This document shows positions 33,211 through 51,854 of a DNA stretch of 64,000 bases, piece by piece; the stretch's first letter is position 1; every line of letters begins with the position of its first letter. A model generated the notes under the pieces. That model saw only the letters and a list, made by a program, of their open reading frames with translations, searched no databases and was not told the origin of the DNA. The position numbers and the translations under genes were made by a program. Source of the DNA: a virus. Location of the stretch: positions 30,998 to 94,997 of IMG/VR virus record IMGVR_UViG_3300042691_048368, one strand, 5' to 3'.

Positions 33211-33218
33211 TAATATAT
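33211..33218 (+). promoter_or_regulatory. Late-promoter-like box TAATATAT, 6 nt before start
   Basis: CTCTTTAATATATAATC context with the ATG at 33225 only 6 nt after the box. A second TTTATATATAC box on the opposite strand (about 33186-33196) precedes the tape measure ATG at 33165, so the 59-nt gap between these divergent genes probably holds two promoters. Confidence 0.5.
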
Positions 33219-33224
33219 AATCAT

Positions 33225-33683
33225 ATGGCCTCACAAAGTATTTACATACAATCAAGTAATAGAGAATCTCTGAAAGATAGTCATCTAAACGACATTTTGG
33301 ATAAAATCCAAATTGGTGGGGTCTTGTCGGAATTAGAAACAAAATTCATTCAAGAATATGAAAATCTATTAGAAACTGACTTGAAAGATTTTTCACACTT
33401 ATCAAAAAATCAAGTATTTGATAAAGTTTGTTATCTTTTGGAAAGAAACAAGACTATCATATGTGATTTGTTCGACAAAAATGGAAAAATAAATGATAGA
33501 ATAATTTCGATCGAGAATCTCTTTGAGGAAGAGTGTTGTTCTATTCTATTGAAACATGGAGATTCTGTAAAGATAATGGACAAATACTTGTATAAAATTA
33601 GTTATAACATCAGAAAAGATCAATATAATTTGGAGTTACAAGGTGAGTACTATGAAAAAATAAGCAAAGAGAATGGAGATTAA
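33225..33683 (+). CDS. Hypothetical protein with ILDKI motif
   Basis: A 152-residue protein. Residues about 20-45 contain LNDILDKIQIGGVLSELETK, then FIQEYENLL. This is the short helical hairpin ILDKI-x(3)-G-x(2)-SL-x(3)-E that I recall from the C-termini of Bacteroidota proteins such as rhomboid proteases (DUF6576-like) and that also ends the 123-residue protein at 41710. The rest is mixed alpha/beta with no catalytic motif. The start is 6 nt after a TAATATAT box. It overlaps the next gene by 11 nt, so the two are co-translated. Function unknown; the motif suggests a protein-interaction or processing role. Confidence 0.65.
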   Translation: MASQSIYIQSSNRESLKDSHLNDILDKIQIGGVLSELETKFIQEYENLLETDLKDFSHLSKNQVFDKVCYLLERNKTIICDLFDKNGKINDRIISIENLFEEECCSILLKHGDSVKIMDKYLYKISYNIRKDQYNLELQGEYYEKISKENGD

Positions 33684-33939
33684 CAGATGGAAAAAATTCA
33701 TTGAATCGATAAGTGGTACAACAGATACCATGCCGTTCGGTCCTAATTCACCCAGACAAGAATTAAAAAACACTATTTCAAGTAAAGACACAACAGTATT
33801 GGAGGGATCCGATGGCGTTTTTTATGATCTTTATAAGTTTCAAGATTTATATAATCAATATCTATCAAATGGTGGTGGCGAGAATCTTTCGGATTTTACT
33901 AAAGAAAATATTGATAAAATTCTACATTTTTTGTCTTAA
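33673..33939 (+). CDS. Hypothetical protein
   Basis: An 88-residue protein starting MEINRWKKFIESISGTTDTM, which loosely resembles the short N-terminal peptides of other small proteins in the window. It has a Pro/Ser/Thr-rich linker (GPNSPRQELKNTISSKDTT) and a C-terminal helical part (YDLYKFQDLYNQYLSNGGGE). Its ATG lies inside the end of the upstream gene (11-nt overlap) and a strong terminator follows. No family recognised. Confidence 0.6.
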   Translation: MEINRWKKFIESISGTTDTMPFGPNSPRQELKNTISSKDTTVLEGSDGVFYDLYKFQDLYNQYLSNGGGENLSDFTKENIDKILHFLS

Positions 33940-33943
33940 AATA

Positions 33944-33972
33944 AAAAAACCCTCTTTCGAGGGTTTTTTTTA
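33944..33972. terminator. Bidirectional terminator
   Basis: Stem AAAAACCCTC / GAGGGTTTTT (33945-33954 with 33959-33968) with TTTC loop and flanking A/T tracts. It ends the two-gene plus-strand unit and the convergent sheath transcript. Confidence 0.9.
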
Positions 33973-33993
33973 TTATATCTCTTGCTGTGTCGA

Positions 33994-36900
33994 TTATGCA
34001 AATCCACCAGCTTCGATAGCTCCAGTTCTGAGTATTGTGATATTGTTAACAATAACACCCATACCTTTGATTGGTTCAACGTATGTATCGATAACACCAA
34101 TTTGTCTGTCGATAAGATCAGGTGGGTTGTTCTCTTCATCACACTTGTTGAAGTAGTTATATAGACCATTTCTAGCTACATAAGTTTCACAGATAACGTC
34201 AGCTTTCAACTTAATTTCAGCTCTTGTATCAGGTGTATTGAACTTCCACTGGAAATCAAGTAACATATTTCCAAGTTCTCTTTCAAGTTCAATAAGAACT
34301 TCTCTAACGTGGAGTAATGAAAGAGCTGATTTGTAAATGACTTGAGCTGTGTTTTCAGTTTCGATAACGAATCCTCTATTTCTCTTGAACACGATTGGGT
34401 TCATTTGAGCTAAGTTGAGGTTCTCAATGTCAGTGAAACTGTAGTTTTGTTCTACACCTTGAATACCAAGAATCTTACCATTAGTTACACCAGCTGCGAT
34501 AGTCCAAGGTACAATCGAAGTTTCAAGTGCTAACTGCTTTCTTAAGTAAGTAGTAGCTGCGAACATAGCTGGTGGTAATTCTGCTGGTCTTCCGTTATCA
34601 TTTACGATTAGATATGGTAGGAAGTAACCAACTGCACTTACACCTTTTCCTTTACCGAATGAATATAAGAAATTCGGATTCTTTTCAGCGTCTCCACCAG
34701 CTGCGATGAGTGCTGTATCGAGATTGCCATTAGCATCTAAGAAGTTAGGATTTGCAGAATTTCTAAACTGTCTCATAGATGGCATGTTTATGAATCCAAG
34801 ACAATCAAGACGTTCTCCACATATATCTACTATTTCTTGCTTCGAATCTTCGGTGAGACCTAGTCCAAAGGAATCAACTACATATCTGAAATCAATAGCG
34901 TCTTTATTAACTAATGCTTTGAATAATGTAGTACCTCTAGATACAACACTCATGATATTATCTTGGGTTGCATCTGTACCATCAGGCATGGAAGCGTCTC
35001 TTACTCTGAACCCTTTCAAAGGAATAGCTTTGTAAGTACCTGCATAAGAATCTAGAGGAGTATATCTTAGAGTCTGTTTTCCACTACCTACTGTGAACTT
35101 TTGAATTTTTGCATCACAAGTAACTTCAGCATATGTTGGATCGACTGACCATGATTTCTTATTCAGAATTCTAGTTAATCTTCTACCTACTTCACCAGTT
35201 GATAATTCATCTGGATCCTCATTTACATATGCAAGTAGGAAATCACCTATTTTAACATCAGCGTATCTAGATCCCTTTATTAGAACTTTATTATCAATTG
35301 GTGTGTAACCAGCTGGTTCATAAATTTCTAGAGTTTCTTTCAAGTTACTCAAATCTGAAATAACAGTTATGTCTTTATTCAATACTGTTGGGCTTGGTAC
35401 AGAAACAGTGCCTGTGAGTGTATTATTTTTGAAATCAACGAAAAGATCTGTTCCAGTTGAATAAGCTGAAATATAATATCTTGTTTCCGCATTCCAAACT
35501 CTTGTGATGCCAGTTAGTACTTCATCAGTGGCTGACTTGTCTAGATAGTATGAGAAGTAATCGGTACTATATGCTCCTGAAAAAGTTGTACCAGTACTTG
35601 GATCAACGATGGAGTTTGTTGCTACATCACCGAGTGTGTATGTTTTATAATTCAATACTGAATCTGGTACTATGATTGATTCTGTACCAGCAACACCAGT
35701 CCAAGGTGATTGATCGAATACAATTACTGGTTTATCAACAGAATCGTTTGTGAATACAACTCTTAGAACTTTATCAGTAAGATTTCCGAAGAAATAATCA
35801 CCAGAGTTTATACGACCATCGAAGAATGATGTATATACAGACGAATATTTACCAGCTACCCCATAGGTTGCGGATGAACCAACTTGTGTTTTTGTTTCTA
35901 ATCCGAGTGTTCCTATGAAAAATTCATCATCCTGTTTATAGAATACTAAGTTTCCATTTGCGATTGATTCCGGAACAACAGTCACTCCCAAAGACAATTT
36001 GAAAGATTTATTTTGTGTTGTTGTTGTGATTATATTCGAAATAGTAGCGTTTTCTAATGATAACTTTTCTTTTGTAGTGGTATTTGTAAGAATAGTCATC
36101 TTTTTGATGTTAGTTGAATCTAACATTGAAACAAGAAGATTGAAAATTCTAAATCTTCTGTGAGCATCATAATCATAATAAACATCTGTCTGAGCTGTTC
36201 CGAGGAAAGTTACAGTAATACTACCATCACCATTGTCGATAACTGTGTAATCAGTACCCTTTACAAAATTTCTGTTATCTGTAAAGGTTGCAGGTGTTGC
36301 TAATTCACTGAATGTTCCACCAATACCAACTCCAATGAAGGTTGCGTTATGTAATGTGTTCAGAGTTGAAAGACTATACGATGCGTAACCAATTACAACA
36401 TCAGTAGCTGTAAGTGTGGGTAATTCACCCGCTTTGAGTCCAATTGATCTTTCAACATTACCAGTTGTGCTATTTAAATAGAAAGTTGAAGCGAAACTTT
36501 GTGTTAAAGCTGCCGTGAGACCGACGTAATTGTTTGTGGAGATAGAGAAAGTAATTGATGTTGCACTACTCACTCCACCTTGAACCAATACTTTGGAACC
36601 GTTAGAAACAAAATATGGTTGTGAAGTAGTACCTGAACCAAGAGAAGGTGGACTTGCAACAAACTCAACAATTATTTGACTAGTAGATTGAGTTAATGAG
36701 CTAGCTGATCCCAAGATGATACCATTTATATAGTTTTCTGAGAAATAAGCAGTTCTAGAACCACCAGAATACCAAGTATCTGTTCTTAATGATGAAAGTG
36801 AAGGTCCTAAAGCAACAACAGTTTGTCCAGTAGAACCACCAGCTAAGTCAAGTGTTTTAGCTTCAAATGGATTGTATTCCGTGATTGTTTCTTTATATGA

Positions 36901-37902
36901 TAGAAAATCGATGGTATCTTGCTCGATATCAACTAAAGAGTTGTTTTTAGCTAGATTGTTACCGATGATATCTACCATACCATTTGAAAATTCACCTTCC
37001 AATTTGGCTGCGTTGAATGCACAAAAGACACCTGTTCTTTCGGTATCTGCATTTATAGTTGATTCGATGAAGATATTTCTTCCGTTAGAATCTTTGAAAA
37101 AGGGAATTAAAGAACAACCCTCATAGAAAGCTAAAGTGTTAACATTTCTATTTTGTGCGAAATTTGATACTTGGTCCTTGTTTAAACCCTTTGTCTGGAA
37201 ATAAGCTGACCACCTTGGATCTACTGCTAATTCCTGATAATTTGACCAATCTCCACCCACGATTAAAACGTCTACTAAGTAGTCAGATGCAAAATCCAAC
37301 TGATTTACATAAGTTGGTACTTTATCAGCTGTGCCGTAGTACTCTAATAATGGTTGATTAAAACCAGTCAATTTAGATTTGAAGATGAATACACTTACAT
37401 ATCTGTTTGAAAGATTTGTGATTGAGAACAATCTATCAGCTCCGTTCGGTTCATTTTTTACCGATTCTAAGAATGTAGTTGTATCTTTTTTCCAGAAACT
37501 TGATGTGTCATGAACTTTTCTGAATGGAATTTCTCTGATAATATCATTTGATTTATCAGAACTTGTTGATAGTGACCTATATTGAACTTTATCTAAAGTA
37601 TCATCTGTGGCAAGAAGATTCATTGCCAAGACGGTATTAGACTCAAGCATTTTAGCCACTGTTCTGTGAAAGAACGAACCCTTTCTTTCGAGGTTTCTAT
37701 CCAATGGGCCAAACACCAGTTCTAAATCCGAAAGATTCGAAATAAGTATAGGTGTATTAACAGGTCCCTTCTTGGACACCCCTATTACAAGAGTTGGTGG
37801 AATGTTAACTCCGGGTACAGGTGGGTTTGGTATAATCGACTGGTCAAATTCTTCGAAGAAGATACCTGGTCTTTTATATTTACCAATTTGAATTGCTGCC
37901 AT
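33994..37902 (-). CDS. Tail sheath protein (gp18-like)
   Basis: A 1302-residue sheath protein, about twice T4 gp18 (659). The N-terminus IGKYKRPGIFFEEFDQSIIP followed by TLVIGVSKKGPVNTP is the typical sheath start. The C-terminal 300 residues carry the conserved sheath core: FINMPSMRQFRNS, VPWTIAAGVTNGKILG, LNPIVFKRNRGFVIE-type strand, and the ending EPIKGMGVIVNNITILRTG. The extra length lies in the middle (about residues 330-950), a Thr/Ser/Gly-rich beta region that would form domains on the sheath surface. The sheath contracts to drive the tube into the cell. The codon use looks biased (many AAC, TTC, GGT), as expected for a highly expressed virion protein. Confidence 0.9.
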   Translation of the reverse strand: MAAIQIGKYKRPGIFFEEFDQSIIPNPPVPGVNIPPTLVIGVSKKGPVNTPILISNLSDLELVFGPLDRNLERKGSFFHRTVAKMLESNTVLAMNLLATDDTLDKVQYRSLSTSSDKSNDIIREIPFRKVHDTSSFWKKDTTTFLESVKNEPNGADRLFSITNLSNRYVSVFIFKSKLTGFNQPLLEYYGTADKVPTYVNQLDFASDYLVDVLIVGGDWSNYQELAVDPRWSAYFQTKGLNKDQVSNFAQNRNVNTLAFYEGCSLIPFFKDSNGRNIFIESTINADTERTGVFCAFNAAKLEGEFSNGMVDIIGNNLAKNNSLVDIEQDTIDFLSYKETITEYNPFEAKTLDLAGGSTGQTVVALGPSLSSLRTDTWYSGGSRTAYFSENYINGIILGSASSLTQSTSQIIVEFVASPPSLGSGTTSQPYFVSNGSKVLVQGGVSSATSITFSISTNNYVGLTAALTQSFASTFYLNSTTGNVERSIGLKAGELPTLTATDVVIGYASYSLSTLNTLHNATFIGVGIGGTFSELATPATFTDNRNFVKGTDYTVIDNGDGSITVTFLGTAQTDVYYDYDAHRRFRIFNLLVSMLDSTNIKKMTILTNTTTKEKLSLENATISNIITTTTQNKSFKLSLGVTVVPESIANGNLVFYKQDDEFFIGTLGLETKTQVGSSATYGVAGKYSSVYTSFFDGRINSGDYFFGNLTDKVLRVVFTNDSVDKPVIVFDQSPWTGVAGTESIIVPDSVLNYKTYTLGDVATNSIVDPSTGTTFSGAYSTDYFSYYLDKSATDEVLTGITRVWNAETRYYISAYSTGTDLFVDFKNNTLTGTVSVPSPTVLNKDITVISDLSNLKETLEIYEPAGYTPIDNKVLIKGSRYADVKIGDFLLAYVNEDPDELSTGEVGRRLTRILNKKSWSVDPTYAEVTCDAKIQKFTVGSGKQTLRYTPLDSYAGTYKAIPLKGFRVRDASMPDGTDATQDNIMSVVSRGTTLFKALVNKDAIDFRYVVDSFGLGLTEDSKQEIVDICGERLDCLGFINMPSMRQFRNSANPNFLDANGNLDTALIAAGGDAEKNPNFLYSFGKGKGVSAVGYFLPYLIVNDNGRPAELPPAMFAATTYLRKQLALETSIVPWTIAAGVTNGKILGIQGVEQNYSFTDIENLNLAQMNPIVFKRNRGFVIETENTAQVIYKSALSLLHVREVLIELERELGNMLLDFQWKFNTPDTRAEIKLKADVICETYVARNGLYNYFNKCDEENNPPDLIDRQIGVIDTYVEPIKGMGVIVNNITILRTGAIEAGGFA

Positions 37903-37936
37903 AGTATTTACTTTTTTTTTTATTTTAATGTATATA

Positions 37937-37975
37937 TAAAAACCAAATTATCATTTTCGGGTGATTTGGTTTTAT
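37937..37975 (-). terminator. Terminator upstream of sheath gene
   Basis: Perfect 10-bp stem AAAACCAAAT / ATTTGGTTTT (37939-37948 with 37964-37973) with T tracts on both sides. It ends the minus-strand transcript of the preceding head-protein genes. A TATATATACATTAAAAT box follows it before the sheath ATG. Confidence 0.75.
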
Positions 37976-38021
37976 ACACTACAATATGTTTTATATATTT
38001 TCATCAAAAACCCTATTTTTT

Positions 38022-38591
38022 CTAAGTTTTTATGAACGATCTATCTTGCTTGATTTCCCTAGTCCCATTTCGGATATCCTTTTCGAATTCCGCTAGTTTG
38101 GACATAGTGTTTCTTTCAAGTCTATCACATTCGGCTTTTATTTCACTTATTTTTCTTTTGATATTTTCAATATCAGTTTTTTTGTTTGTGATATCCTGCA
38201 TTAGTGAATCCTTCATTGTGGGATTTGACGAGGACTGACTTTCTTTATCCTTAATCGAATTTTCTACACTGATTTTTTCTTTTTCAAAATCCAATAGTTG
38301 TTTTTTTAGGTCACAGACTCTTGCATACTCTCCTATTAAGGGATTCAAGAATTTCATTTGAGATTTTGTGCCAGTGGGGTTTATGAACTTCTGTGCAGAT
38401 AGTTTAGATACCAAATCCTTCTCATCTTTTGACGTATTGTAAATATTTTCAAGAGTGACACGTTTAATCTTGAATTCTTTTATATTGTCTTCTATTTGAT
38501 TTATCGAATTTGCAGTAGAAGCGATACTAGGCTTGTCTACGCTACTAACACTTATTTTTTCGTTGGTAAAATCATGAAACTTCTTTATCAT
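38022..38591 (-). CDS. Coiled-coil protein with short N-terminal targeting-like peptide
   Basis: A 189-residue protein that is nearly all coiled coil: heptad-rich helices such as SINQIEDNIKEFKIKRVTLE and NKKTDIENIKRKISEIKAEC. It begins MIKKFHDFTNEKISVS, similar to the N-terminal peptides of other suspected head cargo. Its ATG overlaps the stop of the upstream 1008-residue gene (ATGA), so translation is coupled and the proteins may work together. Scaffold-like or core-like proteins have this composition, but no family is recognised. Confidence 0.65.
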   Translation of the reverse strand: MIKKFHDFTNEKISVSSVDKPSIASTANSINQIEDNIKEFKIKRVTLENIYNTSKDEKDLVSKLSAQKFINPTGTKSQMKFLNPLIGEYARVCDLKKQLLDFEKEKISVENSIKDKESQSSSNPTMKDSLMQDITNKKTDIENIKRKISEIKAECDRLERNTMSKLAEFEKDIRNGTREIKQDRSFIKT

Positions 38592-41500
38592 TTTTTTACA
38601 AGTCCAAAGTTATTTTTTATTCTATCATTTTTGAATTTTGAAGTAATTCCTACAACTTTATCACCACTAGGTCTGTCATATTTTGCACCTCTTTTGGCAG
38701 CTACTGCTTTTCTAGTTTTCGCGTCAGTGGATCCAAGTATAGAAACTTTTGAGACTTGCACATCAATTTCTACAGGGTTGTCTGAATTTATTGATTCACT
38801 TTTGACAAATTTAATTTTGAACGATTTACCAATTTCAAAAATTCTATCATCCTCTTTTTTAAATTCAATGGTACCAACATAGACTATTTCATTTGGTACA
38901 TTTCCTTTTGATATAGATTCCTCCAATGTTTTAGCATCATCTCCAGTTAGTTCTTCACTCAAATATGAAGTTATTAGACTTTGTTTTATTTTATTAGGTT
39001 CGTTAATGTGGAACTTTACAAGTAACACATATTTGTTACCAACATCCGAAGCCTTGGGTTGTGCGTTTATGAATATTATAAGAGATTTATTACCTTTCAA
39101 GGAATTTGATTTAACATCCACTTTGAAAAATGTACTCAAATAGTTTACTTTTTCACCACCTTTGAAATCTTTATAGGAAAATCCTCTTTTTCCGTAAGTG
39201 CCAGACAGTAAGAAACTTAATTCACCTGCTTTACCCAAATCTTCTTTCGCGATCTTAGGAATTTCATCCGGATCAGCATCTCCTGCTTTATCTTCTATAC
39301 CTTGACCTTCTCCAAAATACTTATTGAGTAATGCATGTCTTCTTTGTCTAAATGTAGAATAAGCCCCTCCTTCATTTAACATATCATTTACAAATGTGAA
39401 TAAAGTCAATCCTGATCCTTCTTCTTGATTAGGTCCAACATTTTTAAACTTCGAGTTAGCAAATATCTTTCTATATTTTGTGTCTTGTAAGATATTCATA
39501 ACACCATCTTGCCATTGTTCATATGTCCTTCTAGCTGCCCAAGGTCCGTATCCGGGATTTTCATTAGCACTCCATTCTGGTATACTACTGTCATCTTTCC
39601 CTATAAACTCATATTCCCTAAATGTTTTTAGTGATATTCTCCCTTCCGGTCTTCCCGAAGGAATGTAATCGACCGCATACATTTTATAAGCTTTACCAAA
39701 TATTTTGACTACTTCGAGTATTCTGTCATATATCTGTGCATTTTTAATATCGAGTACAACAGTTGAGTCCTCATCGGCCGCATCTTGTAATGATTTAGCT
39801 TCTTTTTGATCGACTTTATATTTTCCTTCTTCCTCTTCGGTGAATTGTTCCCTCCAAGCATCTTTTACCCTGTCATTGCCACCGGCCTCATCATCTCCAG
39901 TTTCCTCATCATCTTCGGGTGGGTCTACGTTACCCATTTCATCATCATCGGTTGGGGTATCAGCTTCAAAAAGTCTAAATGATTCCCTTTGTGCTTGGGG
40001 TTTATCTTGGCCTCCTTTCTTCTCCGATTCCTTAGCTTTATCTTCTTTCGGCTCTTCTTTCTTTTCACCGATTTTAGCGACATTCTCTTTAGCTATGTCA
40101 TAGGCTTCAATAAAGTCTAATATTGGTTTTTTCAACTCACCAAGAGCTCCTAGAAGTCCTTTATCTTCTTTGAAGGCTAATAATACTCGCGCTACCACAG
40201 AAATGGATTTAACTATGGGTGCATATTTTGTCTTTAATACGCTTACTGCTTCTTTAATAGAATAAGAATCCATAATCTTATCAAAAGTCAATTCTTTAAA
40301 AGTCATTGGTTTTCCTACCGTAGATTCGTTAGCAATAACTTCTTTCATTATCGAAATCAAATATCCTTTTACATTCTCATCACTTTTGACATCATTTTGA
40401 ATTTGAGTCATCGCTGATAAACCTTCTTTCAATAATTCTTCGTTACTTTCAAATGTTCCTCTAACTTTCTTGAAAGCTGCTGATGCTCGATTCTCCCCTT
40501 TCTCATATTCCTTCAATGATTTTGGATCTCCAGGTATTACCTTTTTTGGATCTCCAGGCTTTATTGCTGAATCAGCTGCCTCTCCTCTACCTCTACCAGT
40601 TCCTACCAATTCTTCATTTACCAAAGATTCACTGAGAGTCTTTGGATCTATGATGTTAATAATTGAACCAGCGCCGTAAACACCTTTGTTATTTTTTTGT
40701 GCTACGAGGATTTTAGGTACTATCTTTTTCTTAGGATCTACGACGTCGTCTTTAGTTAAGAATTCCCCATCTTTACCAGGTTGTCTTTGATTTTTTATAT
40801 CAATAACTTTTACTTGTACTTTTTTACCACTTTTATCTGTGTAGGTATATTCTTTACCAACTTCAGGTGTTATAGGTTTTTTATTCTCACCTTCTAATGA
40901 AACTTTCTTCAACTTTAAGGTATCGAAGACTATTCTTATTGATCTAAACATAACAAATAAATTCATCCTTACAATAGTTGCCGGACTTTTTCCACCTTCG
41001 GTAGTTTCATCTTTTTTATTCTTATCTTCATCCTTGTCTTCATCCTCATTGTCCTCATCTTCATCCACATCATCCTCGGGAAGATCTCCAATTTCTTCTT
41101 TCATAGCTCTAAGAGCTTCTAAAAATGCTTCCAATTTTTTTATTACTTCGTCCTTTTCGTCAAAGTTTTCTATTTTTTCAATCATTGTGATAGTTGATCT
41201 GACCAAACCTGGATTAGTATTGTTATCGGCACCTAGCAATGTGGCGACTTTTTTCTCTACTGAATCGGAACTATTGACTACTTTTATTATTTCTTCTAAT
41301 AAAAATTGACTTGTTATTTTTTGTAATTGTCCTTGTTGGGTTTCATCCAATCGAGAGACCGCAATTAAATCATCAAGTGCTTGTTTTAGTCTAGGTATAA
41401 GAAAATTAACCCTAACAGTTTTAACATAGATACCAAGTACTCTAATGGTTGAATTTACAAGTCTCCCTATAAGAGAGGCTCCCCAAGTTATGTCATTTTC

Positions 41501-41611: not shown

Positions 41612-41709
41612 TATATTGCTTAATTTTTGTTTATATATTAATAATAAAGTACTCAAAAAATATTTTTAAACAAGATTCTATATTAAAATAAAATAAATAG
41701 ATCTAATAT

Positions 41710-42956: not shown

Positions 42957-42964
42957 GAATATAT
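42957..42964 (+). promoter_or_regulatory. Late-promoter-like box GAATATAT, 6 nt before start
   Basis: GAATATAT directly after the terminator, 6 nt before the ATG at 42971. The gene downstream has no room for a conventional leader if this box sets the transcription start. Confidence 0.45.
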
Positions 42965-42970
42965 ACATTT

Positions 42971-43822
42971 ATGTTGAGAGGTATATTTATAGACTTGAAC
43001 GTACTTTTGCAGATGGAGAATCATGCTTGGGTTGTTGATAAGAAAAATGCTAATGTTCCTATAATTAAAATTTCACAATCTGATTTGAATCTAATTCAGA
43101 GTGGTATATTTAAGAAGCAAGGTAATAAAGTTGATTTTAACGGTAGAACATATTATTTACCTGAATCACTTATGAACAAAATAAAAATAAAAACAAAATC
43201 GTTCAATATAAACTTCGCCGATCTTGGTATTTCAATGCAAGAATTTATGAACAAATCTATAATAGAAAAAAAGGATTTTGAAATTAATAAAGATTTAATA
43301 CTTGAGTTGAAGAACGAAGTTGATGATATTTACGTTATTTGTTCTAATCAGACTAAAAAATCCTATGAGACAATAATTGAGAAAATAAAAGAGGAGTTCG
43401 AAAAAAATGGATTGAAAATAAAAACTTTCTACCCCATTTCGGAAAACTTTATGAACAAAAGTGATGACGATATTAAGTTCAAAAAAATGAGGTTATTATT
43501 GCAACATATGGTTGGTTATAAAACTGATGGGCAAAAGTTTAAAGATGAGGAAATCACAAGATATGATCAAATTTATTATTATGATAATTATTTAGAAACT
43601 CTAAAGATCACAAAAGAAATAAACAATCTGCTTGAATTTTTACTATCAAGGTCCGATGATGGTTTAAGAAGTGTAATCAAAGAAAATGTTTCGGACTTCA
43701 GACCAACTCTTTGGGTCCATAAAGAAAATGAAAATAAAGTAAACAAAAGAACATCGGACAAGGTTATCTTAAATATTTCCAAAATTGTCAAGACTTTCGA
43801 AAACTTCAATCCTTGTTCTTAA
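42971..43822 (+). CDS. HAD-like fold protein, catalytic motif altered
   Basis: A 283-residue protein laid out like the HAD-type phosphatases of T4-like phages. The N-terminal strand is GIFIDLNVLLQ, where the usual DxD is D-x-N (Asp8, Asn10). There follow NHAWVVDKKNANVPIIKI and a cap region. In the second half IYVICSNQTKKSYETIIEKI gives the motif II Ser/Thr position, and RYDQIYYYDNYLETLK the acidic motif IV position. The missing second Asp suggests it may be a binding protein or a divergent enzyme. Its start is 6 nt from a GAATATAT box. It overlaps the convergent TerS candidate by 17 nt. Confidence 0.5.
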   Translation: MLRGIFIDLNVLLQMENHAWVVDKKNANVPIIKISQSDLNLIQSGIFKKQGNKVDFNGRTYYLPESLMNKIKIKTKSFNINFADLGISMQEFMNKSIIEKKDFEINKDLILELKNEVDDIYVICSNQTKKSYETIIEKIKEEFEKNGLKIKTFYPISENFMNKSDDDIKFKKMRLLLQHMVGYKTDGQKFKDEEITRYDQIYYYDNYLETLKITKEINNLLEFLLSRSDDGLRSVIKENVSDFRPTLWVHKENENKVNKRTSDKVILNISKIVKTFENFNPCS

Positions 43823-44414: not shown

Positions 44415-44459
44415 ATGAGCCTTTGAAATTTCCCATATATATCGGAAAAAGTAACTTCC

Positions 44460-46595: not shown

Positions 46596-46724
46596 TCTCT
46601 TTAATTTCTTGGTTTTACCGATATCTGTTTTTTCAAACAGATTAGAAAACCAATTTTTCTTAAGGTTTTTTTGTTTTTGTTTTGTCTCATTCAAGAGTTC
46701 TTCGAGGATTTCTAAGTTTTTCAT
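46587..46724 (-). CDS. Possible 45-residue protein
   Basis: A short frame on the minus strand beginning ATG (46724) and ending TAA, 45 residues: MKNLEILEELLNETKQKQKN, then LKKNWFSNLFEKTDIGKTKK and a basic end. It overlaps the last 9 nt of the terminase gene and ends 8 nt before the ClpS gene. A perfect 8-bp hairpin (46623-46630 with 46635-46642) lies inside it. It could be a real small gene or chance; the sensible amphipathic composition favours coding. Confidence 0.45.
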   Translation of the reverse strand: MKNLEILEELLNETKQKQKNLKKNWFSNLFEKTDIGKTKKLKRLP

Positions 46725-46732
46725 ATAATTAT

Positions 46733-47014
46733 TTAGGCAATTTCCATAGTGACCGACAGACCATTTGATTTTAATTTTTCATACATTTTTTGTATAGTTT
46801 CATGATCTCCACGTTTCACATCACATTTACCAGTGAAGTGTACAATATGGGCACATTGTGATGCTTGTTCCGGACCATGTTCACAATATTTTATGAGACA
46901 ATTTATTACATGGTCAAATGAATTATAATCATCATTGTGGAGGATGAGTATGTATGGTTTATTAAGTATTTCTTCTACTTGATAGCTTGTTTGTTCTCTC
47001 GTAATTGTTGCCAT
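46733..47014 (-). CDS. clpS: ClpS-like adaptor
   Basis: A 93-residue protein with a complete ClpS core. The N-degron pocket strand is LILHNDDYNSFDHV (Asn27, Asp28, Asp29), followed by the helix INCLIKYCEHGPEQASQC, then AHIVHFTGKC (His59, equivalent to the pocket His of bacterial ClpS) and a closing helix and LSVTMEI strand. ClpS delivers proteins with N-terminal Phe, Leu, Trp or Tyr to ClpAP, and in hosts with ClpC to that unfoldase. The short N-terminal extension before residue 20 is what activates ClpA/ClpC. Context is structural and late. A phage copy could redirect host proteolysis or protect phage proteins. Confidence 0.85.
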   Translation of the reverse strand: MATITREQTSYQVEEILNKPYILILHNDDYNSFDHVINCLIKYCEHGPEQASQCAHIVHFTGKCDVKRGDHETIQKMYEKLKSNGLSVTMEIA

Positions 47015-47085
47015 AGACTTGTATATATTTTTTCTAGGAGTTAATTGAATACAAATATATAGAAAAAAATCGAAAAAAGAAACTT

Positions 47086-47520
47086 ATGAACAAAATATTT
47101 TTAGTTCTTGGAATTATATTGATTGGGCTTGGTATTTTTTGGGGAGTTAAATATAAATTTAAAATACCCGATTTTTCGAAGTGGAATATTTTTGGAAAAT
47201 CTGAACTCGATATTACTGAAGAAAGACTATTGCAAAGATTGACTGATTTAGAGAGAAAAAGTGATTCAATAGGTCCCATTTTGGAAAAATATCAACACAC
47301 TACCGATAGTCTTAGAAAAAATGATTCTCTTATAGATTTGAAGGTTTTCGATTTAAAACAAAAGGATTTATTACTAGAAAGAAAGTTGTCTCAATCCAAA
47401 GACTCTTTGAATAAATATAGAAACAATTTGAGGGATGTAATGAAAAATTATGATCAGGTAAAAAAGAATACAAAAAAGTCATCGAATAAAGAAACTATCG
47501 ATTTCTTCAAAAAATATTGA
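47086..47520 (+). CDS. Membrane-anchored coiled-coil protein (i-spanin-like)
   Basis: A 144-residue protein with one N-terminal transmembrane helix (IFLVLGIILIGLGIFWGV) and a long, Ser/Lys/Leu-rich coiled coil afterwards (LERKSDSIGPILEKYQHTTD, LKQKDLLLERKLSQSKDSLN). The tail is a Lys-rich helix. The topology is that of Rz-type inner-membrane spanins, N-in with a periplasmic coiled coil. It is 6 nt before the next gene, which is exported. The pair could form a spanin complex that fuses inner and outer membranes at lysis. No endolysin is adjacent, so this remains an inference from topology. Confidence 0.6.
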   Translation: MNKIFLVLGIILIGLGIFWGVKYKFKIPDFSKWNIFGKSELDITEERLLQRLTDLERKSDSIGPILEKYQHTTDSLRKNDSLIDLKVFDLKQKDLLLERKLSQSKDSLNKYRNNLRDVMKNYDQVKKNTKKSSNKETIDFFKKY

Positions 47521-47526
47521 AAAATT

Positions 47527-48021
47527 ATGAAAAAAAATATATTTACTTTGATTTTTTTTATAACAACTAATTTCCTTTATTCTCAAGATTTGCCAAAATA
47601 TTATATTCTTAATGGGGACACAGCAGGTATGACTCTGTCGATGGCGCAGGTTAAAAGAATCAAGACAGATCTAGAACTAAAGTCTATTCTCGAAAAGATG
47701 AAGATATCTTGTGATTCACTATCGAATAAATCAAAAACACAGGAGAGAGATTGTGATGAGAGAATAAGTTCGAAGGATAAAATAATATTTCAGATGGACA
47801 CTTCGATTCAATCAAAACTAAACCGTATTAATAACTTGAATGGTGAGTTAGTTCTAACAAGAGAAGATAGAAATGTACAAAAAAAATTATCCCAAGTAAA
47901 GGACAGTTTACTTATAGTTTCTAATTTGCGACTGACAGAAGCAAAAACTCAGAGGAACTTTCTGTTCGGGAGTACAGTTTTATTTTTTGTAACTACAGTA
48001 GCTTTGTTTTTATTCCATTGA
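47527..48021 (+). CDS. Exported coiled-coil protein with C-terminal anchor
   Basis: A 164-residue protein. A Sec signal peptide (MKKNIFTLIFFITTNFLYSQ) has a cleavage site near FLYSQ|D. The mature part is helical and heptad-rich (LELKSILEKMKISCDSLSNK, QSKLNRINNLNGELVLTRED). It ends in a transmembrane helix (FGSTVLFFVTTVALFLF). A signal peptide plus a C-terminal membrane helix would place the coiled coil in the periplasm, parallel to the upstream protein's coiled coil. Two Cys in the central part could be structural. It is probably the partner of the upstream protein in an envelope complex; unlike o-spanins it has no lipobox. Confidence 0.6.
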   Translation: MKKNIFTLIFFITTNFLYSQDLPKYYILNGDTAGMTLSMAQVKRIKTDLELKSILEKMKISCDSLSNKSKTQERDCDERISSKDKIIFQMDTSIQSKLNRINNLNGELVLTREDRNVQKKLSQVKDSLLIVSNLRLTEAKTQRNFLFGSTVLFFVTTVALFLFH

Positions 48022-48042
48022 AAAAAAATCAGTTTTTGTATA

Positions 48043-48050
48043 TAATATAT
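48043..48050 (+). promoter_or_regulatory. Late-promoter-like box TAATATAT
   Basis: TGTATATAATATATAAC context, 31 nt before the ATG at 48082. A leadered example. Confidence 0.4.
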
Positions 48051-48081
48051 AACATACATATTAAAAAAATATTCTTTGAAA

Positions 48082-48621
48082 ATGAATCATATCAGAAAAT
48101 TTGAATCCTTCAGAAAGGGTAAGAAAAGGGAAGAAATCATTAAAGAAGCAGTGCTTCAGGTTAATGATATTTATAAAGTTAAATCCACTATAGACATACC
48201 ACAATCTTTGATAAATGCCTATGTAAAGAAGGTTAAAGACAACACTGGTAAGAATTTAAGACAATTCTTCGGTGATATGGACATTGCTGAAGAAATTGTA
48301 AAACACGTAGCTCAGACTGGATTAGATGCTGACAAGCTTTCGGCCACTGCTTTAGTTGGGGGTTCCCAAGAACAAAGTCAAGGTCAGTCTCAACCACAAG
48401 CTCAAACACAGCCTCAAGTACAAGTAGAATCCCAACCTCAATCTGATTCACAAACTCAAGCTCAGGGACAGGGTCAATCACAGGGTGAGGGCCAAGGTCA
48501 AGGACAAGCTCAAGGTCAATCACAGGATGAAGGACAAGGTCAAGGACAGGGTGAATTTGAAGAAGTTCAAGAGGAAGGTGAAGAAAAAGAAGAAGAAGGG
48601 GAAGAAGAACTTCCTGAATAA
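48082..48621 (+). CDS. Gln/Gly-rich low-complexity protein
   Basis: From the ATG at 48082 (a TTG at 48076 would add two residues), 179 residues. The N-terminus MNHIRKFESFRKGKKREE resembles the shared short peptide of the head cargo candidates. Residues 20-90 are helical (QSLINAYVKKVKDNTGKN, EIVKHVAQTGLDADKLSA). From about 95 it becomes a repeat of QGQ, QSQ and QAQ pairs (about 60 residues) and ends in a run of Glu with few other residues. It is probably a disordered, negatively charged tail. Function unknown. A terminator follows. Confidence 0.6.
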   Translation: MNHIRKFESFRKGKKREEIIKEAVLQVNDIYKVKSTIDIPQSLINAYVKKVKDNTGKNLRQFFGDMDIAEEIVKHVAQTGLDADKLSATALVGGSQEQSQGQSQPQAQTQPQVQVESQPQSDSQTQAQGQGQSQGEGQGQGQAQGQSQDEGQGQGQGEFEEVQEEGEEKEEEGEEELPE

Positions 48622-48626
48622 GATAT

Positions 48627-48656
48627 AAAAAACACCGATTAATCGGTGTTTTTTTT
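48627..48656. terminator. Terminator
   Basis: Perfect inverted repeat AACACCGATT / AATCGGTGTT (48631-48640 with 48641-48650) with A and T tracts. It ends the plus-strand unit from 47086. Confidence 0.9.
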
Positions 48657-48664
48657 GTGCCTTT

Positions 48665-48672
48665 TAATATAT
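48665..48672 (+). promoter_or_regulatory. Late-promoter-like box TAATATAT, 5 nt before start
   Basis: CCTTTTAATATATATTCT context, 5 nt before the ATG at 48678. It directly follows a terminator, so this gene must use this promoter if it is functional. Confidence 0.55.
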
Positions 48673-48677
48673 ATTCT

Positions 48678-49289
48678 ATGATCCATTTAAAACTATTCGA
48701 AAACTTTCAAAATGAGGTTTTATTGATCGTTGATGTTCAAAAGTCATTCAGAAAATTTTTCACAGAAATGTACATACATGAGTTGAAAAAATATTGTGAA
48801 AAATTCGAAGATGTTTATCAAATTTGGGACAATCATGTTGATGGTAAAGGGGTTGATAAGGATTATCTTTTTGACGAAAATCCAGATATACCAGTTCATA
48901 ATGATTTATATAACTTTCCTAATCAAAAAGATATCATAGAAAAAAGATATAATTATGATGTCGATGTAAATTTCTATAAAAAAGTATTAGACAAAAAAAC
49001 ATACGATGAAATAAGTTCGAAAGAAAAGAACAAAACATTGAAAAGGGGGGACTTATTTAAAACAAAAGAAGGCACGGTATTAGTTTATATTGGTAATAAT
49101 CACAAATGGTTTCATATGCCAAAGAAACTATACTTACTCTTTGAAAAATTGAAAAATAAAAGTGTGACTGTTGTTGGTGGGGCTGATTCAGAATGTCTAT
49201 CGGATGTATTCATATCTGCTGAATCCATGGGAATAAATATAAAAAGAGATTGGTCATATATCTGGACCGCAACTAGTTGTCCGATTTAG
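48678..49289 (+). CDS. Isochorismatase-like hydrolase with short N-terminal peptide
   Basis: From ATG 48678 (MIHLKLFENFQNEVLLIVDV), 203 residues; an earlier in-frame ATG would run across the box. The fold is isochorismatase-like: LLIVDVQKSFRKFF gives the catalytic Asp, and the last third has VTVVGGADSECLSDVFISAE with Cys in the nucleophile position (G-x-x-x-x-C-L-x-D). Between them is a long insertion rich in Lys and Tyr. The enzymes are amidohydrolases or nicotinamidases. The N-terminal peptide is the same short motif as in small head proteins, placed directly before the catalytic domain. Substrate unknown. Confidence 0.6.
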   Translation: MIHLKLFENFQNEVLLIVDVQKSFRKFFTEMYIHELKKYCEKFEDVYQIWDNHVDGKGVDKDYLFDENPDIPVHNDLYNFPNQKDIIEKRYNYDVDVNFYKKVLDKKTYDEISSKEKNKTLKRGDLFKTKEGTVLVYIGNNHKWFHMPKKLYLLFEKLKNKSVTVVGGADSECLSDVFISAESMGINIKRDWSYIWTATSCPI

Positions 49290-49669
49290 TTGAATCTACC
49301 TATTTGAGCTATGATATCGTAATCTGCTATTGTTAAATTAACAAACATCATGTCTTGATGATTTTCTGGATCTTGTACAAAGACTACTTGTAAGTTATAA
49401 CTTGATCCCAACATTTCGGGAATGTATTCATCTATTTGCTCTTGTATTTTTGATTTCACATAATCTTCAGAAACTCTAAACTCGAATAAAATTTCTTCAA
49501 GATTTGCTCCAAAATCTGGATCACCCATAACTTCACCTTTATTAGTAAATAAAACCATTTGATACTTTTGTACAATTACACGAAGAAGCTCATCCTCGAT
49601 GATTTCATTCGGATCGTATTTTGGTTGACCATCATAAAGTATATAAAAATCGGTAAAGTCAAAGGCCAT
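49286..49669 (-). CDS. Baseplate wedge protein (gp25-like)
   Basis: A 127-residue protein of the gp25/W family: TDFYILYDGQPKYDPNEIIEDE, then a long helix VIVQKYQMVLFTNKGEVMGD, followed by PDFGANLEEILFEFR, the conserved D-P-x-F-G-x-x-L signature, and a final beta hairpin. gp25 sits at the sheath-initiating ring of the baseplate with gp6 and gp53. It overlaps the convergent isochorismatase-like gene by 4 nt. A perfect TAATATAT box is exactly 5 nt before its ATG. The gp44-like gene lies 10 nt upstream, so it may also be co-transcribed. Confidence 0.85.
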   Translation of the reverse strand: MAFDFTDFYILYDGQPKYDPNEIIEDELLRVIVQKYQMVLFTNKGEVMGDPDFGANLEEILFEFRVSEDYVKSKIQEQIDEYIPEMLGSSYNLQVVFVQDPENHQDMMFVNLTIADYDIIAQIGRFN

Positions 49670-49674
49670 TACCT

Positions 49675-49682
49675 ATATATTA
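49675..49682 (-). promoter_or_regulatory. Late-promoter-like box TAATATAT, 5 nt before start
   Basis: On the minus strand TTTTAATATATAGGTA then ATG (49669). The box overlaps the stop codon of the gp44-like gene. Exact 5-nt spacing. Confidence 0.55.
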
Positions 49683-50654
49683 AAATAAATCTCGCAACTT
49701 ACCCATCAGAGTCATTCCCAAGATTATAGGATCGGTTTGTGATTCTAGTAAGTGGTGGTAATCGGAGACTATATAATTGACTTGAAATAGTTTTTCAATA
49801 TTTTCATTCTTTTCAGTGAATGAGTATTCTATAAACTGTTTACCAAACAAATCAAATAGATCGTGTATTTTGTCTTGCCCCCAATTGTTTAACAGAAAGT
49901 GATAAACATCCTCATAAGTCTTGGACTTGTCAAAAACCATATTGAATGTTTCGAGTTTTAACTTATTATTAGTTACATTTGATTCTATTGCGTTTCCTGT
50001 TAATTTATAACTATCTAGTGAAATGAGTATGGATCTAAAATCAGGAAAATTAGAATTAATAATTTTGACTAAATCATCTTTTTTTATGTCGAATTTTTCT
50101 GCAGGACAGATAACATTTTTTATTTTCTTATAGATTTCTTGTTTCAAAAATCTCTCCTCTTCATTGTTAAGACAATCGAAGTTTACTTCAATCAATCTAG
50201 ATCTAATTCCTTGAGAAACTTTATTTATATGATTCGTTGTGAAAATAAATCTGACATTTTTTTTTGAATATTCTTCAATGTATGCTTTCAAAGCATCTTG
50301 GTATTGAATGGAAGTCCTATCAAATTCATCTAGAAAGACATACTTTATGTCATCACTTTTTATTTCATTTTCTAAATCGAACCCCATGTAAACTTTGGAA
50401 CAAAAATCGTCAATTTTTGTTCTCAATGTGTCTATAGATGTGTAGAAGGAACTGTTTATTTCCAAAAAGGGTTTATCTTTTGTGTATTTTCCAATCAAAA
50501 TCCTCGAAAGTGTTGTTTTGCCAGTACCAAAACTACCATATAAAATATAATTATTGGTTAAGCCATTTGTAAATAATTGTTTTATTCTTGGTAGTAGAAT
50601 TATATCATCAAGGTTTTGGGGTCTCCATCTTTCAGAAAGTAACAAATTTTTCAT
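49680..50654 (-). CDS. Clamp-loader large subunit (gp44/RFC-like AAA+ ATPase)
   Basis: A 324-residue AAA+ ATPase close to T4 gp44 (319). The order is: ERWRPQNLDDIIL at the N-terminus, Walker A GSFGTGKTT (residues 40-48), Walker B KYVFLDEFDR (Asp109, Glu110), sensor 1 FIFTTNH, and an SRL-type arginine motif (QGIRSRLIEVNF) that reaches into the neighbouring subunit. The C-terminal helices form the collar. gp44 with gp62 loads the sliding clamp gp45 for replication. In T4 the same clamp is needed for late transcription with gp55, which is also in this window. gp45 and gp62 are not seen here. Confidence 0.85.
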   Translation of the reverse strand: MKNLLLSERWRPQNLDDIILLPRIKQLFTNGLTNNYILYGSFGTGKTTLSRILIGKYTKDKPFLEINSSFYTSIDTLRTKIDDFCSKVYMGFDLENEIKSDDIKYVFLDEFDRTSIQYQDALKAYIEEYSKKNVRFIFTTNHINKVSQGIRSRLIEVNFDCLNNEEERFLKQEIYKKIKNVICPAEKFDIKKDDLVKIINSNFPDFRSILISLDSYKLTGNAIESNVTNNKLKLETFNMVFDKSKTYEDVYHFLLNNWGQDKIHDLFDLFGKQFIEYSFTEKNENIEKLFQVNYIVSDYHHLLESQTDPIILGMTLMGKLRDLF

Positions 50655-50707
50655 AGATTTGACTTATAAATTATACGAGATATAAAGTTTGAAGGCTGTC
50701 TGTTTAT

Positions 50708-50715
50708 TAATATAT
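50708..50715 (+). promoter_or_regulatory. Late-promoter-like box TAATATAT, 5 nt before start
   Basis: TTTATTAATATATACTTT then ATG (50721); the spacer is 5 nt. The gp15-like gene has no other leader. Confidence 0.55.
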
Positions 50716-50720
50716 ACTTT

Positions 50721-51854
50721 ATGATAGGTGAAAGATTCAACTTTGAGGATGTCTTTTTTAGAGATTTGACGGTTTGTGTGCTTGATACACTTGAGGGAGA
50801 AGTCAGATGGGTGAATAAGTTTAGTTCTGGTGACAGAGTTGTGAATGTGCCATTTTATTACTCATTGACTGGTGACGAAAGATTTCTTTTGGATTCTTTC
50901 ACTGATGATATTGTTTCAAATAGTAGGTACGTCGATTTAAACACCGATATAATACCTAGAGGACATTTGACATTGACCAGTTATGAGATTAGGGGAGATG
51001 AATTTGCAAACCCTAATGTTTGGTTGAAAATGGTAATCGAAAATGAAACTGAAATTAGGAACATGCTCACCAAAGTTAGAGCAATTCCAATAACGGTTAA
51101 GTATGACCTTGTTATTTTTCTTTCCTCCGAGATTGACACATTCAAGTGTAGTCAAGCAATTATGGATACTCTTTGGCTTTACCGATTCATGTATTTCGAA
51201 CACAATTTTATGAATATCGATGCTGTTATGCAAATACCAGATTCGAATAACATTGAAATTAATAGAGAAAAGAATTTGACCTCTGATAATACGATAAAAC
51301 TTACAGTCTCTTTTGATGTGCAGACTTATTATCCCGCCTATAGAAAGCCGAAGCTCCCCGATACTTTGCCATTTACATTATCAACCAATTATATAAATAA
51401 AAACCTAAATATCAAAATTGATCTTATTTCAGGTGATTCTCAAGTCAGGTATTCCGAATATCATAATATGACTACCTCATCAGATGGAAGTGTGGTAATT
51501 CTGATTGGATCTGGATCTGCAATTAGAGGGAATTATTTGAATATAAATCTAAAAGAAAATGGGTTGAAGATAAAAATCTTCATAAATACGAATATAGATT
51601 CCGAAAATTATGAGGAATTAGCATTTTCCGGTGATTTGGAACCGTTTTCTGATTCAAATGCAGATTTGGAAACGTTAAATCAGCTGTCGTCGAATTCATA
51701 TAGTTCGCCAACCCCTAATGGTGATTTCAGAGATATAATTATACTACCAAAAAGAACACGCTGGTATAATAATCTTATCAACACTAGGGGGGGTGGTATT
51801 AGAAGTAGAACTCCTTATAACAGTGAAAATATTAACAATCAAAAAAAACTGTAG
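50721..51854 (+). CDS. Tail sheath stabiliser/terminator (gp15-like)
   Basis: A 377-residue protein whose first 210 residues follow T4 gp15: ERFNFEDVFFRDLTVCVLDT, a SGDRVVNVPFYYSL strand, PRGHLTLTSYEIR, then IPITVKYDLVIFLSSEIDTF and the conserved SVSFDVQTYYPAYR-type strand (TVSFDVQTYYPAYR). gp15 caps the finished tail tube and sheath and joins it to the head neck proteins. The C-terminal 130 residues are an extra Ser/Asn-rich beta region not in T4. Similarity is by pattern and strand order; I judge it good. Its start is 5 nt from a TAATATAT box. Confidence 0.7.
   Translation: MIGERFNFEDVFFRDLTVCVLDTLEGEVRWVNKFSSGDRVVNVPFYYSLTGDERFLLDSFTDDIVSNSRYVDLNTDIIPRGHLTLTSYEIRGDEFANPNVWLKMVIENETEIRNMLTKVRAIPITVKYDLVIFLSSEIDTFKCSQAIMDTLWLYRFMYFEHNFMNIDAVMQIPDSNNIEINREKNLTSDNTIKLTVSFDVQTYYPAYRKPKLPDTLPFTLSTNYINKNLNIKIDLISGDSQVRYSEYHNMTTSSDGSVVILIGSGSAIRGNYLNINLKENGLKIKIFINTNIDSENYEELAFSGDLEPFSDSNADLETLNQLSSNSYSSPTPNGDFRDIIILPKRTRWYNNLINTRGGGIRSRTPYNSENINNQKKL

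Follow-up and report, generated by a model that had tools for sequence, protein, structure and literature searches.

Putative late promoters abutting start codons predict leaderless mRNAs in a huge phage of the Mahaphage group

Overview

A 9-nt element, TAATATATA, with 4 nt between it and the ATG, is predicted to be a late promoter core that gives leaderless mRNAs in a huge phage and its relatives, and we put the probability that this is the whole explanation at about 0.84. The 9-mer corrects the 8-nt version of the box described initially. It would cover positions −13 to −5 and be read by the host RNA polymerase together with a phage gp55-like sigma factor, with transcription starting from the A located 5–6 nt past TAATATAT. 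In 30–60% of the boxed genes of the contig and its near relatives this +1 A would be the A of the AUG, and the mRNA would therefore have no leader (0, sometimes 1–4 nt); the other boxed genes, including those for the most highly produced structural proteins, would have leaders of ~14–24 nt, and leaders of ~6–13 nt appear to be avoided. The late timing, the exact 5′ ends, the translation of the leaderless mRNAs and the identity of the polymerase are inferred from sequence.

The window, i.e. the whole stretch of DNA that was analyzed (64 kb), is part of a 95-kb contig, and contig-wide counts refer to the 92 genes of that contig. The contig is predicted to be a member of the Mahaphage huge-phage group from its close homology to genomes of more than 600 kb, and its hosts are predicted to be Bacteroidota. 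Its major capsid protein shares 67% identity with that of LR756502, 66% with LR745206, 50% with LR756504 and 49% with LR756501; genomes larger than 634 kb with Bacteroidetes hosts have been placed in the Mahaphage clade (PMC7162821); the LR relatives are of matching size, and we infer that they are the Mahaphage clade genomes of Al-Shayeb et al. 2020. The reference relative, W01, is 642 kb long with 968 genes, and a wider replication set contains 1001 genes from about 80 other relatives; gene starts are those of our own gene caller, and the relatives are not statistically independent of each other.

Enrichment of the box upstream of genes

The initial annotation listed eight genes with a box 5–6 nt before the start codon, and all eight are present at that spacing when the sequences are printed (Table 1). 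The identities of the boxes hold at most of these sites; the box at 42971 is GAATATAT and not TAATATAT, and that at 13735 is the weakest example because it has neither the AAT core nor the ninth A. A comparison with AT-rich sequence of matched composition, the control named in the initial annotation, shows this spacing to be enriched. There are 23 copies of TAATATAT in the window compared to 9.7 in shuffles, 24 within 80 nt upstream of the 92 contig genes compared to 2.7 in 500 dinucleotide shuffles, and 8 at a spacing of 5–6 nt compared to 0.08, an excess of ~100-fold. Among 70 anagrams, TAATATAT ranks first at spacing 5–6 in the contig (8 copies; median 0), in W01 (73; median 1) and in W02 (69; median 1), and in W01 the box is followed by N5-ATG 53 times, compared to twice for the reversed motif. 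Because the genome is 68% A+T and the TAA of the upstream gene falls inside some boxes, a coincidence of AT-rich sequence or of upstream stop codons might be considered, but the excess over shuffles, the rank among anagrams, the conservation of the box in orthologues, and its being commonest at divergent genes, which have no stop codon in front of them, refute it, and we regard its probability as negligible.

Alignment of 352 pooled boxes reveals no information at −35 and, around −25 and −31, a weak signal at most. The T4 core, TATAAATA, which in T4 spans −13 to −6, was also considered as the box, and is not enriched at promoter spacing in these phages. No TAATATAT was found upstream of genes in the smaller Bacteroidota phages PTm1 and MaF61, the latter having GATAAATA in its place.

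Table 1. Predicted promoter boxes and associated features in the window.
Box or feature	Coordinates	Strand	Gene	Predicted class or comment
TTATATAT (4127–4134) + 5 nt + ATG	4119..4134	−	300-aa gene 3219–4121	leaderless
TAATATAT + 8 nt + ATG	4536..4554	+	236-aa gene at 4552	leader 0–3 nt
ATATATAT + 5 nt + ATG	13722..13737	+	HNH homing endonuclease at 13735	weak example
TAATATAT (16260–16267) + 5 nt + ATG	16252..16267	−	72-aa gene 16036–16254	leaderless
TAATATAT (33211–33218) + 6 nt + ATG	33211..33227	+	152-aa gene at 33225	leaderless
TTATATAT, 29 nt upstream of gene	37932..37939	−	tail sheath gene 33994–37902	long-leader version
GAATATAT + 6 nt + ATG	42957..42973	+	283-aa gene at 42971	leaderless
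palindromic ATATATAT	44435..44442	.	divergent terminase large subunit and 43806–44414 genes	common to both genes
AAATATAT + 8 nt + ATG	47012..47030	−	93-aa gene 46733–47014	
TAATATAT + 5 nt + ATG	48665..48680	+	203-aa gene at 48678	N-terminus MIHLKLFENF, capsid-targeting-like
TAATATAT (49675–49682) + 5 nt + ATG	49667..49682	−	127-aa baseplate wedge subunit (gp25-like)	
TAATATAT + 5 nt + ATG	50708..50723	+	377-aa gene at 50721	best-conserved leaderless case
T4 gp55-like late sigma factor	53340..53705	+	121 aa, ATT start	phrog_234, E = 4.3e-9 and 2.7e-9
TATATTTG (host sigma-A type −7 box)	53875..53882	−	tRNA-Ile/tRNA-Met pair	11 nt upstream of the pair
TAATATAT, 32 nt upstream of gene	55736..55778	+	portal protein	long-leader version
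CAATATAT, 28 nt upstream of gene	58430..58468	+	head maturation protease	long-leader version
AAATATAT, 27 nt upstream of start	60624..60661	+	major capsid protein	long-leader version

Spacing and the predicted transcription start

The distance between the box and the start codon has a sharp lower edge. In W01 the numbers of genes with TAATATAT at 0 to 4 nt from the ATG are 2, 1, 0, 1 and 0, followed by 51, 22, 16, 9, 6, 2 and 1 at 5 to 11 nt; the spacing is bimodal, nearly empty at 12–18 nt with a second hump at 19–29 nt, and W02 repeats this distribution. The ~80 other relatives have a single gene at 0–4 nt in total, 52 at 5 nt and 23 at 6 nt. The edge is also seen in W01 without gene calls, with 53 ATGs at 5 nt downstream of TAATATAT as against 4–13 at 0–4 nt. 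Secondly, the sixth base past the box, the predicted +1, is an A in most of the long-leader genes: 83% in W01 (p 1e-8), 78% in W02 (1e-6), 86% in W03, 78% in the contig and 80% in the other relatives (4e-8). Thirdly, both features are displaced in W04, where the ATG edge has moved to 6 nt (14 genes, compared to one at 5 nt) and the A peak to 7–8 nt (88%). The base directly 5′ of the ATG is T in 72% of genes at spacing 5 and 62% at spacing 6, which agrees with a Y(−1)A(+1) initiator.

The tail of spacings from 5 to 10 nt, together with the possibility that T4-type and host sigma factors use several start positions, would fit a promoter that starts 1–4 nt 5′ of the AUG and gives very short leaders rather than none. 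However, the peak sits at the smallest permitted spacing, and at spacings 5, 6 and 8 the base before the ATG is T and not A, in agreement with a start at the A of the ATG, so we consider general short leaders improbable; the genes at spacing 6–10 may nonetheless have leaders of 1–5 nt.

The boxes mark the starts of transcription units, not genes within operons. A leaderless box precedes 174 of 720 divergent genes and 44 of 1535 tightly tandem genes (p 2e-53), and in most genomes the box is found at 4–5% of operon-internal genes as compared to ~50% of divergent ones. This pattern bears on whether the box is instead an AU-rich site for ribosome or S1 binding that replaces the Shine-Dalgarno sequence, with transcription beginning further upstream. 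Bacteroidota do initiate without Shine-Dalgarno sequences and prefer A at −3 and −6 (PMC6847099), and a ribosome site would likewise give a fixed spacing of 5–6 nt. But operon-internal genes need initiation signals too and nearly lack the box, the spacing falls into two modes separated by an empty zone, the A at +6 persists when the start codon is 19–29 nt away, and A(−3) occurs in 40% of leaderless genes against 55% of unboxed ones (p 3e-6); the host promoter box, moreover, peaks at its own known leaderless distance (see below). A role in translation is thus very unlikely.

Conservation among orthologues

Among W01/W02 orthologue pairs, 29 are leaderless in both, 35 leadered in both and 10 mixed (p 1.5e-10). 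At the level of single genes, the box of the 377-aa gene is at spacing 6 in the orthologues of W01 (76% identity), W02 (76%) and W03 (39%), with a long leader in W04. Orthologues of the 203-aa gene (W01 67%, W02 62%) have start residues aligning one to one and spacing 6, and those of the 300-aa gene have spacing 6 in W01 (74%) and 5 in W02 (70%). The gp25-like gene has spacings of 9 in W01 and 7 in W02, and the 93-aa gene a spacing of 8 in W01 too (70%) with a long leader in W02. The 283-aa gene has spacing 7 in W03 and no box in W01 or W02, and the 152-aa gene has a long leader in both of the latter. Overall, ~30–60% of boxed genes are at leaderless spacing, compared to 2% in a Bacteroidota chromosome put through the same pipeline.

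The long-leader boxes of the head, tail and packaging genes (Table 1) suggest that highly produced structural genes use leaders rather than leaderless starts. The palindromic box is 17 nt from the terminase large subunit gene (+) and 20 nt from its leftwards neighbor (−). As to the avoided leader lengths, a ribosome of this host, without Shine-Dalgarno pairing, can probably use an AUG at the very 5′ end, or else a leader whose length suffices to occupy the mRNA channel.

A host-type promoter with its own leaderless peak

The box TAnnTTTG has its own leaderless peak in these phages, at 4 nt before the start; mapping of TSSs in Flavobacterium psychrophilum has put this box at −12 to −5 (PMC9723704). 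The −7 promoters of Bacteroidota sigma-A (sigma-ABfr) are like those of the phages, with the same box at an equal distance from +1, but leaderless spacing is rare in a Parabacteroides chromosome (2% of boxes) and frequent in four of these phages (35–78%). PTm1 has a small peak at 4 nt (4 genes). These promoters probably serve early genes and tRNAs, so that early-type promoters would often be leaderless too. An Rfam search of the window found two tRNAs and nothing else. As a promoter test free of ribosomes, tRNA genes are mostly uninformative because phage tRNA arrays seldom carry the late box, with a few instances in W02 and W04.

A gp55-like factor and T4-type late transcription

A gene for a T4 gp55-like late sigma factor lies in the window, and such genes were found in 10 of 11 records searched with phrog_234, including W01, W02, W03, W05 and G001. 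The similarities to T4 late promoters are a sigma factor of the gp55 family, a core of ~8–9 bp near −13 that consists of A and T only, the lack of a −35 element and service to head, tail and packaging genes; box-bearing genes here include virion and packaging genes. The differences are the core itself, TAATATATA here often abutting the start codon, and the weakness of gp45. T4 late transcription requires the gp45 clamp, and T4 late mRNAs have leaders containing Shine-Dalgarno sequences. The window encodes the clamp loader gp44 at 49680–50654, and the gp45 clamp family phrog_223 has a weak match in W02 only (E = 1.8e-4).

Because the T4 core is not enriched, the gp55 assignment rests on homology and analogy, and the promoter could be read by another factor, such as a second sigma factor of the phage or a host holoenzyme that has been modified. 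The short gp55 matches only part of the profile, the clamp evidence is weak, and W04 has no phrog_234 match although it carries the box; yet the breadth of gp55-like genes, the position of the box in the T4 late-box register, and the absence of a −35 element with at most a weak −25/−31 signal all favor the gp55-like protein, and we think another factor unlikely, if the most credible of the alternatives.

The reading of the box as a T4-type late promoter element, with transcription from the A of the ATG, passed every sequence-level test applied, and its support comes from the spacing edge, the A at +1, the joint shift in W04, the restriction to unit starts, the conservation in orthologues, the host-type box and the gp55-like factor.

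The gp55-like gene apparently starts at AUU; of 21 relatives, 12 have AUU or AUC as its start codon. Alignment of the gp55 leaders gave no consensus base pairs, although leaders fold individually and some of the stems appear to covary.

Capsid-targeting-like N-termini

Many predicted leaderless genes encode N-termini that resemble by motif the T4 capsid-targeting sequence, an N-terminal propeptide of ~10–20 residues with a prohead-protease site. The motif M-K-[HY]-[LI]-K-x-[YF]-x-x-F-E is present in 48% of W01 leaderless genes, using a score trained on W02. The association is strong in W01, W02, W03 and W04, the W04 score not being independent because it was trained and tested on identical genes; the contig itself, with 16 leaderless genes, shows no detectable association.

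Precedents and implications

Systematic use of leaderless mRNAs by phages, which the initial annotation considered to be known in few cases, has a precedent in Thermus thermophilus phage phiYS40, for which most middle and late transcripts are described as leaderless (PMC3594737, citing the original work). The phages are alike in having largely leaderless transcripts, but phiYS40 has a host of an unrelated phylum where leaderless genes are common, whereas the Mahaphage host phylum has few, and in Mahaphages one promoter class would hold both leaderless and leadered genes. Leaderless genes of Deinococcus-Thermus and Actinobacteria have a −10 box adjoining the open reading frame (PMC3160421, PMC12340547), the same positional signature and one validated experimentally in Deinococcus, but these are cellular genes under the main sigma factor. 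In Bacteroidetes/Chlorobi a leaderless signature was reported in 1 of 37 genomes, with 2.4% of genes (PMC3160421).

The unusual gp55 start codon leads to a speculation that we consider doubtful. Start codons of the AUU/AUC class are disfavored by initiation factor IF3, which is also able to repress the translation of leaderless mRNAs. If IF3 activity fell in the course of infection, the late sigma factor and the leaderless regulon could be turned on together; much early and late expression in Mahaphages might then be leaderless, gated via gp55 and falling IF3 activity, and deliver capsid-targeted proteins into the virion.

If 5′-end mapping confirms the predictions, leaderless initiation would be a major expression route in phages that are among the largest known, with hundreds of viral messages predicted to start at the start codon without a lead-in, in a phylum whose mapped transcriptomes contain a few per cent of leaderless mRNAs. 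The roughly one hundred aligned examples per large genome would place the transcription start to the nucleotide, reveal leader lengths (~6–13 nt) that are shunned by ribosomes without Shine-Dalgarno pairing, and improve the annotation of gene starts in these genomes, and they would point to a late sigma factor whose start codon is not AUG and to a large set of predicted virion-packaged proteins.

Relatives of the contig and genomes compared

The window spans bases 30998–94997 of a virus contig of 94,997 bases, all of which was read. The major capsid protein encoded by the contig is 67% identical to that of LR756502 (642 kb; W01) and 66% to that of LR745206 (635 kb; W02), and shares 50% and 49% identity with those of LR756504 (636 kb; W03) and LR756501 (735 kb; W04), all four being uncultured phage genomes. 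Mahaphages have genomes in this size range and predicted Bacteroidetes hosts (PMC7162821), and we infer from their sizes and source that the four records are Mahaphage genomes of that study, which makes no mention of leaderless genes. W01 and W02 were taken whole, and W04 (600 kb), W03 (300 kb), LR756500 (W05; 200 kb), an IMG/VR relative (G001; 240 kb) and Flavobacterium phage MaF61 (PQ858689; most of the genome) were sampled in part; PTm1 was also compared, and a 400-kb stretch of a Parabacteroides chromosome was the control. Related genomes were pooled, and gene starts are those of our own caller, a codon model blind to upstream sequence, which called 92 genes on the whole contig.

Spacing of the putative late box

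The initial annotation described TAATATAT-like boxes, the proposed core of T4-type late promoters, 5–6 nt before the start codons at window positions 48678, 50721, 33225, 42971 and 13735 (plus strand) and 49669, 16254 and 4121 (minus strand), and predicted leaderless late mRNAs from them. A box is present at all eight, with its sequence corrected at two: GAATATAT is read at 42971, and only ATATATAT at 13735. Within 80 nt upstream of the contig genes TAATATAT occurs 24 times versus 2.7 in dinucleotide shuffles, and at a spacing of 5–6 nt from the start codon 8 times versus 0.08; among all 70 anagrams it ranks strongest at this spacing in the contig, W01 and W02. The short spacing is therefore enriched over composition-matched sequence, and the possibility raised in the initial annotation that it reflects composition does not hold.

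The distribution in W01 has a sharp edge, with 2, 1, 0, 1 and 0 genes at distances of 0–4 nt and 51, 22, 16, 9, 6, 2 and 1 at 5–11 nt, followed by almost none at 12–18 nt and a hump at 19–29 nt, and this pattern recurs in W02, W03 and G001. Genes with the short spacing are predicted to be leaderless and are so termed below, those of the hump leadered. Among 1001 genes of about 80 further relatives, a single gene lies at 0–4 nt, and 52, 23, 10 and 4 at 5–8 nt. The 5-nt edge is also seen without gene calls, and in W01 the motif outnumbers its reverse there by 53 to 2. The full box is TAATATATA, mostly with T in front. Leaderless genes make up 63% of late-box genes in W01, 48% in W02, 45% in the contig, 39% in W03, 29% in G001, 27% in W04 and 20% in W05, where genes are few.

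The box as a probable promoter

In long-leader genes the sixth base after TAATATAT, the same position as the A of ATG in spacing-5 genes, is A in 78–86% of cases, versus about 55% at neighbouring positions. W04 has its edge one base further out, with 14 genes at 6 nt and one at 5 nt; its A peak, at positions 7–8 (88%), moves in step. The base preceding ATG in leaderless genes is T in 72% (spacing 5) and 62% (spacing 6), resembling an initiator with a pyrimidine at -1 and A at +1. Divergent and tandem genes alike would need a ribosome-binding element, yet the box concentrates at divergent genes: it precedes about half of these and 4–5% of tightly tandem genes in W01, W02 and W04, 50% versus 10% in the contig and 31% versus 1% in W03. 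The box at leaderless spacing alone precedes 174 of 720 divergent versus 44 of 1535 tightly tandem genes (p = 2e-53, related genomes pooled). Orthologues in W01 and W02 tend to keep their class (29 pairs both leaderless, 35 both leadered, 10 mixed; p = 1.5e-10), and at gene 50721 the box is held at 5–6 nt in four phages within otherwise divergent upstream sequence. Judged from sequence, the box is probably a promoter from which transcription of spacing-5 genes would start at the A of AUG.

The host-type TAnnTTTG box of the Bacteroidota main sigma factor, probably serving early genes, is also present in these phages. It lies at -12 to -5 relative to the transcription start in Flavobacterium psychrophilum (PMC9723704) and 4–5 nt from it in F. 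johnsoniae (PMC6847099). In the phages it peaks exactly 4 nt before ATG in W02 (20 genes), W03 (16) and G001 (15), and at 4–5 nt in W01 (10 and 9 genes), and shows the late box's empty zone too. After background subtraction, 35–78% are at leaderless spacing in W01, W02, W03 and G001, versus 2% in the Parabacteroides chromosome. The published leaderless rate is 5.5% in F. psychrophilum, and leaders under 10 nt account for 3.7% in Bacteroides thetaiotaomicron (PMC7366714).

Genes behind the box

Long-leader boxed genes in the window encode the major capsid protein, portal, head protease, terminase, tail sheath and head-closure proteins; the leaderless ones include a baseplate wedge gene and the genes at 50721 and 48678. 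An N-terminal motif like MKHLKxYKIFES, scored in W01 after training on W02, is found in 48% of leaderless, 14% of leadered and 3% of unboxed unit-first genes. About 157 W01 genes carry it by this score, 70 at leaderless late promoters and 65 within operons; the association was undetected in the contig itself. In the form M-K-[HY]-[LI]-K-x-[YF]-x-x-F-E it marks large protein families, and is seen in leaderless genes of W01–W04 and in window genes 48678 and 48082. These N-termini resemble the propeptides, short and with a prohead-protease site, that target T4 internal proteins to the capsid (PMC9958956), and the motif-bearing proteins are tentatively predicted to form a virion-packaged set. Palindromic boxes between divergent genes look like candidate two-way late promoters.

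Locations of late-transcription and initiation-factor features
Feature	Location	Strand	Search result
T4 gp55-family late sigma factor	window 53340-53705	+	phrog_234, E = 4.3e-9
Palindromic boxes between divergent genes (ATATATAT, GAATATATATTC, TTAATATATATATTAA)	window 44435-44442; window 54996-55039; contig 16939-16993		
Phage-encoded IF3	W03 110044; W04 50202; W05 57155; G001 386334		PF00707, E about 1e-26 to 1e-31

The late sigma factor

Homologues of gp55 were found in 10 of 11 records searched, the phrog_234 search giving no match in W04. The box register and the missing -35 element resemble those of T4 late promoters, whereas the core sequence differs, and the gp55-like protein likely reads the box. 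A match to the sliding clamp on which T4 late transcription depends was obtained in W02 only, and weakly (phrog_223, E = 1.8e-4). In MaF61, a smaller Bacteroidota phage, GATAAATA occurs 14 times upstream of genes versus 0.4 expected and is a likely T4-type late box; no leaderless spacing peak was found for it in the part of the genome sampled.

The window gp55 gene apparently starts with ATT; counting the window gene itself, 21 distinct sequences have ATG (9), ATT (7) or ATC (5) at the corresponding codon. Conservation sets in exactly at this codon, and an in-frame AUG, GUG or UUG upstream of it before a stop is absent in all but one of the 21, the simplest reading being a non-AUG start of the late sigma factor. 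Such an AUU start (AUC or AUG in relatives) would belong to the IF3-sensitive class. The gp55 leaders of the window and of about 20 relatives (L003–L072, L237, L238) have in common TATATAACATGAAAG, a conserved AAAAAATAAT block just upstream of the start, and small hairpins.

Proposed leaderless initiation

Beyond the observed spacing, +1 signature, gene context and conservation, we propose that late RNA polymerase would begin transcription at the A of AUG and that 70S ribosomes would bind directly to the AUG at the 5' end, in the manner that a review describes for leaderless mRNAs elsewhere (PMC9031893). The Thermus phage phiYS40 is a precedent, its middle and late mRNAs being mostly leaderless, with IF2 reported as raised and IF3 as lowered (PMC3594737). 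W03, W04, W05 and G001 encode their own IF3; no IF3 gene (PF00707) was found in the whole genomes of W01 or W02, the two in which the leaderless share is highest. Together, the phiYS40 shift and the distribution of IF3 genes suggest that initiation-factor balance may matter in these phages.

Leader lengths of about 6–13 nt are nearly absent in both promoter classes (W01–W05 and the boxed genes of the contig), and the same gap is found for TAnnTTTG in Parabacteroides. Leaders of this length appear to be avoided, and the gap may offer a natural gauge of the shortest leader usable without Shine-Dalgarno pairing.
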